Part shown: positions 4,160 to 10,093 of the stretch, piece after piece | Position numbering within the stretch: the stretch's first letter is position 1 | Layout of the letters: every line of letters begins with the position of its first letter | Assembly (NCBI GenBank): GCA_003130875.1 | Contig: QEXY01000162.1 | Span: 1 to 33,175, forward strand | Length of the DNA stretch: 33,175 nt | Origin: Ardenticatenia bacterium | GTDB taxonomy: Bacteria; Chloroflexota; Anaerolineae; 4572-78; NAK82 | Direction of reading: 5' to 3' | Made by a program: the position numbers and the translations under genes | The notes under the pieces: model-generated | Told to the model about the DNA's origin: nothing | What the model saw: only the letters and a program-made list of their open reading frames with translations | Database searches by the model: none

Positions 4160-6367
4160 CTATGCTGCTAAGCTGCTCAGCTGCTCCTTCAGCCAGGAAG
4201 ACAGAACGCTTGCCGGTGTACCTGCTGGTGTGGTCTGCACCTGCCAGGTGTGCGGACGGGCGAAAACCTGAGCATATACATGCCGTGGCCATTCCAACTT
4301 GGCCATATGCGTCGATTCTGTCAATGGCGCGCGCATTCCATCTACAGGGTCAGCGATCAGCAAGGCACGCGGTGCGATGAGGGCCATCACCTGAGGCAGG
4401 TCGCAATGGTGGAGCGCGTCGAAGAGATAAGCGCTCGGTGGGAAACCGGGCCGCTCCACGATCAAGTCATGGTAAGAAATGGGTGTCTCCCACAGAGCAG
4501 CTGCGGCCAGCCGCTCGTCCAGCGCGGCGGCATGGAGGCACCACAGGCCTCCTAATCCGCGCCCTAGGCATCCGATGCGTCCCTTATCGATTTGCACCCC
4601 GATGTAGATGCGTCGCCACAGATAGTCCACTGCGCGCAACACATCCCATACGCGCTGACCGAAGAGAGGGCGGTCGCTCATCAGTGCGTTGGTGGCCGCT
4701 TCGAAATCGCTGGCGGCCGTCTCACCCACTCCGCGCACATCTACTGCCAACACGGCTAGTCCCGCTTGCAGCAAAGCATCCACAATGCCGGTCTCTATGC
4801 CAACTTGCTTGCCCCACTCGTCCACGTAGATCACTGTCGGAAAATGGCGTTGCCACTCTGCCGGCGCCAGGAACACGGCGGGCAGTTCGATGCCGGGCTC
4901 GCTTTCGAAGACCACCCGCTCGGCGAACAAGCCGTCATAGAGCACCTGGTTATATGTGCGATCCTTGACCAAGGGATGCCCTGTTGGCATACGGCCCAGC
5001 AGAGCTCGTGTGCGCGACAGCAGCTCGACACGCTGCGCTGGCCAGGTGGCTGCATCGGGCAACGCGGGCATGGGCAACTCTGTGGCAATGTGCTGCGTCA
5101 GCCGGGTGATGGCAGCACCACACGATGGCGAGTGACCAGAAGGAAAACACCAGCCCGGATTCTCACGCGGATACTCGTCGCGATGACGCAGGATGGGTAA
5201 ATCGTCGCGCTCCGGCGGTGCAATGTAGGTCAGAGCCGAGGGATAGGGGGTCGGCAAGAGGTCGCACCTCCGTTCCGGTGAGGGTTCTCCATTTCCCTTG
5301 CCCTGTAACCAACGCATCATCCAGCCGTACATCGCCTCGCGCATCGGTTGGGTGTAGCCATGCTCATCATCCACCTCGACCAGCTGCACATTTTGCTCAG
5401 CCTCCCAGAAGCGATAAAGCGCTTGGAGGCGTTGGTACACCACGCGTGTCCCAGCGATGGGGAACATCCAGTCGTGCTGCGCCGCGATCAGGCAGAGCGG
5501 CTTGGGAGCGAACAGGCCAACAATGTCGCTCATCTCGGCGTAGGCCATCACCTCCGGCACCTGATTGCACAGATCAACCCCATCCTCCCAATTGCGGTCG
5601 CGCTCGGCAGTCATCATCTGGTAAAAAGTGGTGACAAAGCAGACCGGTACACTGACCCCAATGCGCGCGTCCAGGGCACTCGTGTAGAAGGTGTTCAGCC
5701 CCCCGCCAGATGCGCCGGTCATCCCAACGCGTGCCTTGTCCACATCAGGGCGGGAGAGGAGGTAATCCAACGCGCGCATGCTCTCCCAGACCATCAGTCC
5801 GGCCTGGCTCACCCCCACCAGTAAGGGTTCCAGGTGTCCGTGTTCCATCCAGTCGCCCAGGCGCTCACCTTGACCGATGGGATCGTAAACCAACACGACA
5901 AAGCCCCGCAGTGCCAGGTTGGCGCAACACACTTGGATGTCGGGTTCCAACTTGCCGTTTTCCATCCAATGACCCGGCGCGAAGAGCACCGCGGGTGCTG
6001 GCGTGCGCAGATCATCGGGGATGTAGACGTGCGCAGCCACCCACAAGTCGGGCAGCGTCTCATAAATCACTTTCTCAATGGAGTAACCAATGCGCGAAAG
6101 GGTGCCCACCACCTGTGCGCTCAGGAGGGTTCGGTGGGGTTCCAGTCGATCCAAACCCAGTGAGCGGCGTAAGCGGGCTGTGACTTCGGCAGCGCGCGTC
6201 AACCAGTCCGCTCGCGACTTGGGAGAGGGCAGTTGCGTGGCGAGTCGGGCGGCATATGCTTGGATAAAGTCCAGTAGCATAGCATTACCAGGGAGTGAAT
6301 GATCAATGCCCCACCAGGCCAGGCGCTGCCGGAGTGGAGCACGGGCTATGGGATTTGCATCGTTCAT
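4160..6367 (-). CDS. Tandem alpha/beta hydrolase (AXE1/dienelactone-hydrolase-like), second domain inactive
   Basis: This protein of about 735 residues holds two alpha/beta hydrolase domains in tandem. Numbered from the GTG one codon upstream of the chosen ATG, domain 1 (about 75-355) has the nucleophile elbow GASGGG with Ser221, a candidate acid at Asp300 (QHDWMFP) and a candidate His337 (DDEHGY). Domain 2 (about 440-735) has the same layout, VDVRGVGE then CLGRGLGG at 601-608, but glycine 605 stands where the serine should be, so it should not act as a serine hydrolase. Overall pattern resembles acetyl xylan esterase/acyl peptidase relatives, and an ester substrate is inferred only. There is no signal peptide, pointing to the cytoplasm. 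It heads a likely operon with the toroid protein. ATG at 6367 is preceded by an in-frame GTG; no strong Shine-Dalgarno is visible. Confidence 0.85.
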   Translation of the reverse strand: MNDANPIARAPLRQRLAWWGIDHSLPGNAMLLDFIQAYAARLATQLPSPKSRADWLTRAAEVTARLRRSLGLDRLEPHRTLLSAQVVGTLSRIGYSIEKVIYETLPDLWVAAHVYIPDDLRTPAPAVLFAPGHWMENGKLEPDIQVCCANLALRGFVVLVYDPIGQGERLGDWMEHGHLEPLLVGVSQAGLMVWESMRALDYLLSRPDVDKARVGMTGASGGGLNTFYTSALDARIGVSVPVCFVTTFYQMMTAERDRNWEDGVDLCNQVPEVMAYAEMSDIVGLFAPKPLCLIAAQHDWMFPIAGTRVVYQRLQALYRFWEAEQNVQLVEVDDEHGYTQPMREAMYGWMMRWLQGKGNGEPSPERRCDLLPTPYPSALTYIAPPERDDLPILRHRDEYPRENPGWCFPSGHSPSCGAAITRLTQHIATELPMPALPDAATWPAQRVELLSRTRALLGRMPTGHPLVKDRTYNQVLYDGLFAERVVFESEPGIELPAVFLAPAEWQRHFPTVIYVDEWGKQVGIETGIVDALLQAGLAVLAVDVRGVGETAASDFEAATNALMSDRPLFGQRVWDVLRAVDYLWRRIYIGVQIDKGRIGCLGRGLGGLWCLHAAALDERLAAAALWETPISYHDLIVERPGFPPSAYLFDALHHCDLPQVMALIAPRALLIADPVDGMRAPLTESTHMAKLEWPRHVYAQVFARPHTWQVQTTPAGTPASVLSSWLKEQLSSLAA

Positions 6368-6531
6368 CACACTTTACCGAAAAACCAACGGGATTACAGT
6401 GACGGCAGTAATACGCGTAAGTTGGATGGTGCTTTCGTACTATATCCTGCCAGACCCTGTATGCCAAGTCAAGGATATGTGCCAAATGGGGTTGGAACAA
6501 GGTCCGCCTGAATACACGTCGGCGAGGCATG

Positions 6532-6615: not shown

Positions 6616-6644
6616 TTGCAAATATGCTGAAACTCATGTACAAT
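6616..6644 (+). promoter_or_regulatory. Sigma-70-type promoter of the MerR-like regulator
   Basis: TTGCAA (-35) and TACAAT (-10, 5 of 6 matches to TATAAT) are separated by exactly 17 bp. The predicted start near 6651 gives a leader of about 70 nt before the ATG at 6720. Confidence 0.6.
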
Positions 6645-6719
6645 TTGCGATATGTTATCCAAATCGTGATGCTCTGACATAAATGAGGAATCTACATCGT
6701 CTGAGTGAGGAGGTATTGC

Positions 6720-7361
6720 ATGCCGGGAAAGGGATCAGGTCTCACGCCTAGTGTGAAATGGTTGTCTCTGCAAGATGCCAGTCGTATGCTGGGTGTCCAC
6801 CCCTCTACCCTGCGTCAATGGGCTGATGCTGGCAAAATCCACACGGTGCGCACTCCAGGTGGACACCGCCGCTTTGCTGAAACCGACGTGCGCGCTCTGC
6901 TGGAGCCGGAGCCGCTCGAACCGGCAGGGATTCAATTGTTGGTGCAAAGCGCATTGGGGCGTGCTCGCCTTGAGGTGAGCGGCGGCAAGATCAGTGAGCA
7001 GAGTTGGTACAAGCGCTTTGATGAAACCGACAAGGCAGAGCATCGTGAGCTGGGTCGCAAGCTACTTTCCTTGGTGATGCAATATCTTGCCCAGCCGGGT
7101 GATCGCCAGAGCGTCCTTGATGAAGCGCGTGCGTTGGGACGCGCTTATGGCGAACGCTCTATGGCGCGCAACCTGCGCATCACCGAATCGGTGAGTGCAT
7201 TCCTCTACTTCCAGGATTTCTTGATGGACGGCGTGCGCCAAATGGCCAAAACAGTGGGCCAAAGCGCGAATGTCGACTTGGTGGCCGCATACCAGCAAAT
7301 CGGTCAGTTCACCAATGAGGTACTGCTGGCCATGCTCGAGGTCTACGAAAAAGCAATGTAA
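6720..7361 (+). CDS. MerR-type DNA-binding domain fused to RsbRD-like helical sensor domain
   Basis: A 213-residue regulator. Residues 14-62 form an excisionase/MerR-type winged helix (WLSLQDASRMLGVHPSTLRQ, then TPGGHRRF), the recognition region of MerR proteins. Residues 75-213 are all-helical and resemble the RsbRD N-terminal (PF14361-type) or globin-like sensor domain seen in stressosome proteins. No cysteines suited to metal sensing are present, so it is not a classical metal-responsive MerR. The ATG at 6720 is chosen because GAGGAGG lies 6 bases upstream; an in-frame GTG at 6705 would place that Shine-Dalgarno inside the gene. The ADH homologue begins 11 bases downstream, so this is probably a co-transcribed local regulator. 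Signal and targets are unknown. Confidence 0.85.
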   Translation: MPGKGSGLTPSVKWLSLQDASRMLGVHPSTLRQWADAGKIHTVRTPGGHRRFAETDVRALLEPEPLEPAGIQLLVQSALGRARLEVSGGKISEQSWYKRFDETDKAEHRELGRKLLSLVMQYLAQPGDRQSVLDEARALGRAYGERSMARNLRITESVSAFLYFQDFLMDGVRQMAKTVGQSANVDLVAAYQQIGQFTNEVLLAMLEVYEKAM

Positions 7362-7372
7362 GTGTCCAGTTC

Positions 7373-8527
7373 ATGCCCTTTACTCTCTACATTCCCACAC
7401 AGGTGGTCTTTGGACAGTCAGTGCGCAACAGCCTGGCGGCTTGGTTGCGCACTGCATCGAAGCTGTGTGTCTTGCTCGTCAGCGATCCGTTCCTCATCGA
7501 GTTGCCGTGGGCAAGACAGATATGCTCTGACCTGGAAGCTTCCGGTTGCAGGTTGACTCAATATACTCGTGTCAGCAGCAATCCTGACGTCCAGGAAGTT
7601 CACCAGGGGTTGCAGCAGGCGCGCGAGGAAGGTGTTCAAGCTATTGTAGCGCTGGGAGGCGGTAGTGTCATCGATGCTGCCAAAGCAATCGCTATGCTGC
7701 TGACAAACGGGGACAATTACACAGACTATCTCAGTGGCAATCGCCGCGTTCAGCGTCGCAGCTGTTTTCTGGTGGCGATTCCGACGACAGCGGGCACGGG
7801 CAGTGAGGTGACACGTTCTTGTTCTATCCTGGACAGTGCAAGTGCGACCTACAAAGTGGTCTCCAGCCCTTTGATGTTTCCCCACATGGCGTGGATCGAC
7901 CCGACGCTTACCCTCTCATTACCACCCTCGCTCACGGCAGCCACTGGCATCACGGTTATGATCCAGGCGTTAGAGGCTTATCTGGCTCGTCGCGCAAACC
8001 CCTTTGTAGATCCTTTGGCCATCGCTGCCATCCAGACGGTGTGGCAGCATCTGCCGCGCGCACTGGCGGATGGCCACGACATCACCGCTCGTCAGGCAAT
8101 GATGTTGGCTGCTTTATGGGCCGGGTGGTGTCGCGATCAGTGCGGTGGGGGACTAGTAGATGCGCTTTCCGTGCCTTTGAGATTGCATCTTCGTTTGCAC
8201 AGTGGGATCGCGGGTGCGCTGACGCTACCCCACGTGCTACGCGTTAATCTACCTGCTATCCCATCCGCCAGACGACAGCATCTCAGCAACGCGCTTGGAT
8301 TGGCCACAGACGCCTCGGACGAACAGCTGGTGGAACGAATCGCCCAGTTTATCCAATACCTGGGGTTACCCCTGCGCCTCAAAGACCTGGACACCGCCGT
8401 CATCGATTACGACTGGCATCGCTTTGCCGATGAGGTGATGCAGCAAACAGAAAGCATCACGAACAATCCTCGCGCTGTCTCCTTCGAGGATTGCCGCGGC
8501 ATCCTCGCAGCGATCCTATCCGGCTAA
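7373..8527 (+). CDS. Iron-containing alcohol dehydrogenase homologue lacking most metal ligands
   Basis: A 384-residue member of the group III (Fe-ADH) family. The nucleotide-binding half is normal: GGGSVIDAAKAIA (95-107) and PTTAGTGSEVT (137-147). The metal site is not. In the family, Asp and His of the D-A-L-x-H motif, the His of AHPLG and the His of PHG bind iron or zinc. Here these positions read Thr194, Gln198, Val267 and His276, so only one ligand survives. A metal-dependent hydride transfer is therefore doubtful; a different reaction, a nucleotide-binding or regulatory role, or a metal-free reductase are open options. The reading frame is uninterrupted and conserved elsewhere, arguing against a decaying pseudogene. 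It sits 11 bases after the MerR-like regulator and before lysine 2,3-aminomutase. No strong Shine-Dalgarno precedes the ATG. Confidence 0.88.
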   Translation: MPFTLYIPTQVVFGQSVRNSLAAWLRTASKLCVLLVSDPFLIELPWARQICSDLEASGCRLTQYTRVSSNPDVQEVHQGLQQAREEGVQAIVALGGGSVIDAAKAIAMLLTNGDNYTDYLSGNRRVQRRSCFLVAIPTTAGTGSEVTRSCSILDSASATYKVVSSPLMFPHMAWIDPTLTLSLPPSLTAATGITVMIQALEAYLARRANPFVDPLAIAAIQTVWQHLPRALADGHDITARQAMMLAALWAGWCRDQCGGGLVDALSVPLRLHLRLHSGIAGALTLPHVLRVNLPAIPSARRQHLSNALGLATDASDEQLVERIAQFIQYLGLPLRLKDLDTAVIDYDWHRFADEVMQQTESITNNPRAVSFEDCRGILAAILSG

Positions 8528-8671: not shown

Positions 8672-10093
8672 ATGGATAATAATAGCATTAATAGCATGCG
8701 CAAGTTCAGCCGCGAATGGAAGGCATCACGCACTCTGCGCCCTGCTATCTGGGCGCATGTGCCCGATGAACAATGGTACGATTGGCGCTGGCAACTCAGC
8801 CATCGTCTCAATACGCTAGAGGAGTTGCAACGCTTGATTCGCTTGACCCCCGAAGAGATAGAGGGCATTGCAGCGCATCGCTTTCGTCTCGACATCACGC
8901 CTTATTTCGCCTCTTTGATCGATCCGGATGATCCGCTCTGTCCTGTGCGCCAGCAAGTGATCCCTAAGGGACGGGAGCTGGCTGCATTCACCGCTATGAC
9001 AGTTGATGCGCTGGCCGAGGATGCCCACTCTCCAGTGCCTGGACTGGTGCATCGCTATCCGGATCGCGTCTTGATGCTGGTGACGACTCATTGTGCGAGC
9101 TATTGTCGTTATTGTACACGCAGCCGCTTGGTGGGCGATTTGCACGCCACCTTCGGTCCTCAAGACTATGAGGCCCAGATCGACTACATCCGGCGCACGC
9201 CTCAGGTGCGTGATGTGCTCCTCTCCGGCGGTGATCCGCTCACGCTCAGCTCGCGAGTGCTGGAGAGCTTGTTGGCTCGCCTGCGGGACATCCCCCACGT
9301 TGAGGTGATTCGCATCGGCACCCGTGTTCCGGTCTTTCTGCCAATGCGCATCGACGACGCGCTTTTGCAAATGATACGCCGTTACCACCCGATCTGGGTA
9401 AACATCCACGTCAATCATCCACGCGAGATCACCCCCGAGCTATGCGCTGCCTGTGAGCGAATGGCCGACGCCGGCATTCCGCTGGGCAATCAGAGTGTGT
9501 TGCTGGCTGGCATCAACGATTCGGTGCACATTCAGCGCCAGCTGGTGCATGAGTTAGTGCAGATGCGTGTGCGTCCTTACTATCTTTATCAGTGCGACCT
9601 AGTGCCGGGGGCCGGGCACTTTCGCACTCCCGTCAGCAAAGGTATCGAAATTATCGAGGGCTTGCGTGGGCACACCTCGGGCTTCGCAGTGCCTCAGTAT
9701 ATGATTGATGTGCCAGGTGGTGGTGGCAAGGTGCCGGTAGGACCCAACTACGTACTCTCGCAATCCCCTGGACGCGTGATCTTGCGCAATTTTGAGGGCT
9801 ACATCGCCACCTACACCGAGCCGCTGGACTATGACCCGACACGCATTCAGCATCTGGAAGCACAGGTGATGCGCCGTCCGGAACCGGGTCAGGAAGGTCT
9901 GGTGAGTCTGTTGGAAGGCCGTCAGATTGCCATCAAGCCGCAGGGGTTCGATGCCCTGCATCGACGAGGACGCACCACAGAGCATCGCCTGAGCGCCAAT
10001 GCGCAAAAGTGGCGGCCCTTTGGAATCGATACGGAGAAGAGACCTGCCAAAGAGCCCGACAGCGAGGAAGCTACCGTCGACAGTTCTGCGTAG
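8672..10093 (+). CDS. kamA: L-lysine 2,3-aminomutase (radical SAM, PLP)
   Basis: This 473-residue enzyme converts L-lysine to L-beta-lysine using a 4Fe-4S cluster, S-adenosylmethionine and pyridoxal phosphate. The cluster motif is Cys141-x3-Cys145-x2-Cys148 (CASYCRYC). The SGGDPL motif follows at 185-190. The PLP lysine is Lys353 in DVPGGGGKVP. Asp309 (QCDL) and Asp346 (ID before PGGGGK) keep the exact spacing to that lysine seen for Asp293 and Asp330 of the clostridial enzyme, which bind the substrate epsilon-amino group. Glutamate 2,3-aminomutases carry other residues there, so lysine is the likely substrate. The C-terminus is about 50 residues longer than the clostridial enzyme and charged. 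An alternative ATG lies at 8696. No acetyltransferase (ablB) or beta-lysine fermentation genes flank it, so the fate of beta-lysine is not shown. Confidence 0.92.
   Translation: MDNNSINSMRKFSREWKASRTLRPAIWAHVPDEQWYDWRWQLSHRLNTLEELQRLIRLTPEEIEGIAAHRFRLDITPYFASLIDPDDPLCPVRQQVIPKGRELAAFTAMTVDALAEDAHSPVPGLVHRYPDRVLMLVTTHCASYCRYCTRSRLVGDLHATFGPQDYEAQIDYIRRTPQVRDVLLSGGDPLTLSSRVLESLLARLRDIPHVEVIRIGTRVPVFLPMRIDDALLQMIRRYHPIWVNIHVNHPREITPELCAACERMADAGIPLGNQSVLLAGINDSVHIQRQLVHELVQMRVRPYYLYQCDLVPGAGHFRTPVSKGIEIIEGLRGHTSGFAVPQYMIDVPGGGGKVPVGPNYVLSQSPGRVILRNFEGYIATYTEPLDYDPTRIQHLEAQVMRRPEPGQEGLVSLLEGRQIAIKPQGFDALHRRGRTTEHRLSANAQKWRPFGIDTEKRPAKEPDSEEATVDSSA

Follow-up and report, generated by a model that had tools for sequence, protein, structure and literature searches.

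What has become of an alcohol dehydrogenase that keeps its cofactor-binding motifs and loses its metal site? The question is raised by a gene in the window, which is the whole 33,175-nucleotide stretch of DNA analyzed here, from a Chloroflexota genome of 3.49 Mb in 195 contigs. A first-pass annotation had described the product as an iron-dependent alcohol dehydrogenase (Fe-ADH) family protein deprived of three of its four metal ligands, and had proposed a changed reaction or a sensing role rather than decay. The open reading frame is complete and its frame intact:

7373–8527, forward strand: ligand-less Fe-ADH family gene, 384 residues and a stop codon, assigned by Pfam and by fold match

The protein matches the Pfam profiles for both the N-terminal and the C-terminal domain of Fe-ADHs, PF00465 (149.7 bits, cut-off 31.3) and PF25137 (103.6 bits, cut-off 27), and its closest solved relatives by sequence are the methanol dehydrogenases of B. 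methanolicus and ADH2 of Z. mobilis, with FucO somewhat further. The AlphaFold2 model, built from a 19-sequence input that includes Fe-ADH sequences from viral contigs, has a pLDDT of 92.4 and a pTM of 0.92 (three sequences alone gave a pLDDT of 45.5). When superimposed onto FucO, the model matches with a Z score of 52.6 and a deviation of 1.9 Å over 372 residues; the predicted fold is that of a complete Fe-ADH.

The nucleotide-binding motifs are intact, as had been noted at first reading; two of them lie as follows:

7655–7675, forward strand: cofactor motif GGGSVID, residues 95–101, intact
7784–7807, forward strand: cofactor motif TTAGTGSE, residues 138–145, intact

These correspond to the dinucleotide motifs GGGSxxD and TTxGTGSE; Gly95–Ser98, Ile100, and Asp101 are invariant in the intact relatives and retained in all three congeners (the window's species, G002, and G001). 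Asp38 is also unchanged. Judging by its motif, it is the likely equivalent of human position 81, where Asp goes with NAD rather than NADP (PMC5125639). The protein would bind NAD(H).

The Fe-ADH metal is held by Asp, His, His, and His, which are Asp242, His246, His330, and His357 in human ADHFE1 (PMC5125639). We mapped these positions by alignment to Z. mobilis ADH2 (PDB 3owo), which is gap-free between residues 122 and 295 and gives the replacements D194T, H198Q, H263D, and H277S:

7952–7954, forward strand: Thr194 at metal ligand 1 (Asp); T/T/T in the genus
7964–7966, forward strand: Gln198 at metal ligand 2 (His); Q/Q/Q in the genus
8159–8161, forward strand: Asp263 at metal ligand 3 (His); D/E/D in the genus
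8201–8203, forward strand: Ser277 at metal ligand 4 (His); S/N/N in the genus

By this alignment all four canonical ligands are lost. The ligand loss described in the first-pass annotation is therefore real and goes further than it claimed, four of four instead of three. Its placement of Thr194 and Gln198 agrees with D194 and H198 of ADH2, and its other two positions do not hold. Val267, taken for the third ligand, faces H267 of ADH2, the position of the FucO His267 that does not bind iron according to the crystal structure (PMC5125639), and the true column holds Asp263. His276, taken for a retained fourth ligand, faces P276 and lies one residue before the ligand column, which is occupied by Ser277. 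The gap-free alignment and the literature (PMC5125639) together rule out Val267 and His276 as ligand positions. Since Thr194, Gln198, Asp263, and Ser277 replace Asp-His-His-His, we class the protein on sequence as an Fe-ADH family homologue and not as an iron-dependent ADH. With the group III enzymes (cd08551; Z. mobilis ADH2, E. coli FucO, B. methanolicus Mdh) it shares the fold (Z of about 52 over about 370 residues), the motifs, and 27–32% identity, and it differs from them in having all four ligands and the otherwise invariant Lys160 replaced.

An orthologue search, which the first-pass annotation had called for, recovered the same ligand losses in two congeneric species: G002 (82% identity) and G001 (71%) carry T, Q, E or D, and N in the ligand columns. 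G006 (54% identity), which belongs to the same family but a different genus, reads S, H, Q, H in these columns, so that two ligands are lost. Searches at the level of order, class, and phylum brought up 22 more members of the subfamily, every one with D, H, H, H, and a phylum-wide sample of 400 genomes contained no further ligand-less member, its one other match (G116) being intact. Intact members such as G021, G022, and G024 share the subfamily, 49% identity, and an LHxLHHG-type segment with the window protein; unlike it, they keep the four ligands, have metabolic neighbors, often aldehyde dehydrogenases of the betaine or phenylacetaldehyde type, and have no regulator beside them. In a tree built with the ligand columns masked, the losing clade (G006 and the genus) has a support of 100/99 and the genus 100/100, and the clade is nested among intact members within a subfamily supported at 100/99. 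In the simplest history, Asp194 and His263 would have been lost on the common stem, and then His198 and His277 on the stem of the genus. The losing clade consists of four genomes, all of them fragmented assemblies (90 to 550 contigs), G006 being 71% complete.

Could such a pattern come from decay or from sequencing error? The ADH-like protein does diverge faster than its neighbor KamA and much faster than the regulator, with identities between the window and its congeners of 71–82% for the ADH-like protein and 93–95% for the regulator. Nevertheless, the frames are intact and the same losses recur in the assemblies of three species, with Nei-Gojobori dN/dS values of 0.089 (window and G002) and 0.080 (window and G001, with a high dS of 2.6); these values of about 0.08–0.09 are rough, and synonymous sites are saturated in the third congener pair. 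Purifying selection acts on the gene. Moreover, equally long branches elsewhere in the subfamily retain all ligands, one of them with 0.94 changes per column, so that rapid divergence by itself does not explain the losses. Sequence error or early pseudogene decay is accordingly ruled out for practical purposes, with barely any probability left to it: the erasure of the metal site is a conserved one. The first-pass preference for a function over decay was well founded, given the purifying selection, the losses shared by congeners, and their stepwise order.

Among 33 columns that are nearly invariant in intact members and outgroups, five have changed in all three congeners, and these are the four ligands and Lys160; the probability of finding all four ligands among five changed columns by chance is about 1.2e-4 (hypergeometric). 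The Lys160 replacement and a new cysteine pair lie as follows:

7850–7852, forward strand: Tyr160 in place of a superfamily-invariant Lys; Y/Y/S in the congeners, N in G006
8129–8143, forward strand: C253-R-D-Q-C257, a new cysteine pair common to the three congeners

Ala253 is invariant in the 22 intact relatives, and Cys253 and Cys257 arose on the branch of the genus, which also changed positions 254 (R/H) and 259 (G), those mutated in the FucO F254I and L259V structures. The changes at 254 and 259 and the gain of the two cysteines suggest a remodeled pocket in the genus. Single-ligand changes are already documented in Fe-ADH subfamilies; here, a clade lacking all four ligands, a two-ligand intermediate, and 22 intact relatives provide a staged record of metal-site loss under selection.

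The gene lies closely behind a gene for a helix-turn-helix (HTH) protein:

6616–6644, forward strand: promoter-like TTGCAA-17-TACAAT, 5' of the regulator, recognizable in three congeners
6705–7361, forward strand: HTH regulator (PF12728, PF00376), with a likely start at ATG 6720 behind AGGAGG

The regulator combines a BldC/MerR-type DNA-binding domain with a C-terminal part that has no Pfam match, and its AGGAGG-ATG start is conserved in three congeners; promoter-like matches are only slightly more numerous in the region than in shuffles. In the three congeners the regulator and the ADH-like gene are separated by 11, 12, and 15 bp; G006 has a wider gap of about 136 bp. The regulator adjoins the ADH-like gene in all four losing members, so that the regulator side of the neighborhood remarked upon in the first-pass annotation holds across the two genera of the clade; at the loci of intact relatives, most of them with only 1.5 kb flanks, tblastn found no regulator. 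This arrangement suggests co-transcription, with the ADH-like gene in second place in a bicistron. The regulator is older than the pairing. Its family is widespread in the class, being present in 43 of 100 genomes. The gene that follows it in G004 is unrelated and convergently oriented, and in G003 and G005 it is flanked by recF and a macrodomain gene with no ADH, on contigs that end soon after it. None of G003 (only 63% complete), G004, and G005 has a close ADH homologue. Members of the regulator family stand beside recF and a macrodomain gene in three sister genera (L074–L076).

On the other side lies the aminomutase gene:

8672–10093, forward strand: KamA-type radical SAM lysine 2,3-aminomutase (TIGR03820, 529.3 bits, cut-off 525.4)

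This neighbor, cited in the first-pass annotation, is present throughout the genus and is not linked in G006 or other genomes: kamA adjoins the ADH-like gene in the genus only and is located elsewhere in G006 and other relatives, which weakens a functional tie. The aminomutase linkage is younger than that with the regulator, and kamA is probably not part of the unit formed by the regulator and the ADH-like gene. In the segment 8672–14754, the genes for KamA, a YfhO-like membrane protein, a GT2, and a GT87 form a block that the three congeners have in common and that stands behind the ADH-like gene in this genus alone. On the reverse strand, 4160–6370 encodes a single chain of 736 residues in which two regions (about residues 100–345 and 527–629) resemble alpha/beta-hydrolases. 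Many intact relatives adjoin genes for an aldehyde dehydrogenase, an amidohydrolase, an SDR, or an FAD-oxidase, and these usual metabolic neighbors are absent beside the genes of the losing clade.

A changed reaction and a sensing role, the two options of the first-pass annotation, both stand as alternatives to decay, and the choice between them is close. We lean slightly toward the second, because the regulator is the only neighbor common to the whole losing clade and the usual metabolic neighbors are gone. The protein would be a retired Fe-ADH that kept its fold, its dinucleotide motifs, and the NAD-type Asp38 while its four ligands and Lys160 were replaced under selection; metal-dependent alcohol or aldehyde chemistry has very probably gone. 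Made together with the HTH regulator, it would bind NAD(H) as a pseudoenzyme and modulate the regulator according to the redox state or a bound small molecule. To this reading, an NAD(H)-binding pseudoenzyme without metal chemistry that modulates its co-transcribed regulator, we give a probability of about 0.4. The combination of lost catalytic-site residues and purifying selection by which pseudoenzymes are recognized is found here, and both contact with the regulator and sensing are what we infer from the locus. That an Fe-ADH turned into such a partner in stages, with the linkage and two losses on the stem and two more losses in the genus, is a more tentative proposal. Against a partner role, the regulator occurs in G004 without an ADH-like gene and thus does not need the protein, the much faster divergence of the ADH-like protein counts in the same direction, and adjacency in four genomes is not equal to physical interaction. 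Metal-free Fe-ADH relatives, such as maleylacetate reductase, can moreover be active enzymes (PMC5125639).

This last point leads to a metal-independent NAD(P)H reductase, nearly as likely as the regulator partner, in which hydride would pass from the cofactor without a bound metal and the remodeled pocket (Thr194, Gln198, Asp/Glu263, Arg/His254, Gly259, and Cys253/Cys257) would take another substrate. Maleylacetate reductases (cd08177; GraC, PDB 3w5s) offer an analogy: they share the Fe-ADH fold and are reported to function metal-free after a change of the Asp ligand to Asn or Arg, hydride transfer without bound metal having been proposed (PMC5125639), whereas the window protein has Thr there. 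The fold search also matched their structures (3w5s, Z 43.5; 3hl0, Z 41.8), the cofactor motifs are intact, and the residues that replaced the ligands are polar and for the most part constant within the genus, as one would expect of a working pocket. On the other hand, the invariant Lys160 is lost too and no metabolic partner gene is conserved, kamA being linked in the genus only. Sequence scores rule out maleylacetate reductase as the closest subfamily, since its solved members reach about 50–67 bits, compared with 175 for methanol dehydrogenase, and ADH2 and FucO also stand far above them. A new metal site formed by Cys253/Cys257, Asp/Glu263, and the retained His272/His276 seems improbable. 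All three congeners have Cys253, Cys257, His272, and His276, the two cysteines appear on the genus branch, and position 263 is always acidic. That position varies between Asp and Glu, however, and among intact relatives with a normal site His276 never varies and His272 is frequent.

For the regulator-partner role, ErcA/YiaY of Pseudomonas provides a loose precedent, an Fe-ADH that takes part in regulation together with a co-cistronic kinase (PMC12997753). The likeness lies in a two-gene module of an Fe-ADH family protein and a regulatory protein; YiaY differs in being described as Fe2+-dependent and in its pairing with a histidine kinase rather than an HTH protein. The ErcA model NF041833 is the top NCBIfam model for the window protein, at 226 bits, far below the equivalog cut-off of 550; an adjacent regulatory gene is present, but of a different kind. 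In the open-access literature we found no report of a comparable Fe-ADH pseudoenzyme, which is not proof of absence. Whether an ADH scaffold can act as the cofactor sensor of a transcription regulator becomes testable here, and the question of mechanism is shared with ErcA/YiaY.

The host genome has two PF00465 matches in all, and neither that search nor the tree revealed an intact copy of the subfamily in it. The second Fe-ADH (G000:C71:66525-67403, L001) falls outside the subfamily. At metal ligand 2 it has Gln in place of His, and many L001-like proteins of related genomes agree with it (pattern D, Q, H, H; motif TASTGLDALTQ), a separate and widespread variation of the metal site. Fe-ADH-like proteins of about 260–290 residues are also encoded on IMG/VR viral contigs of about 18–30 kb (L116, L120, L121, and L123). 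They lack the N-terminal 60 residues or so, L118, L124, and L125 look similar to them, and the four aligned proteins (L116, L120, L121, and L123) all carry Gln at ligand 2.
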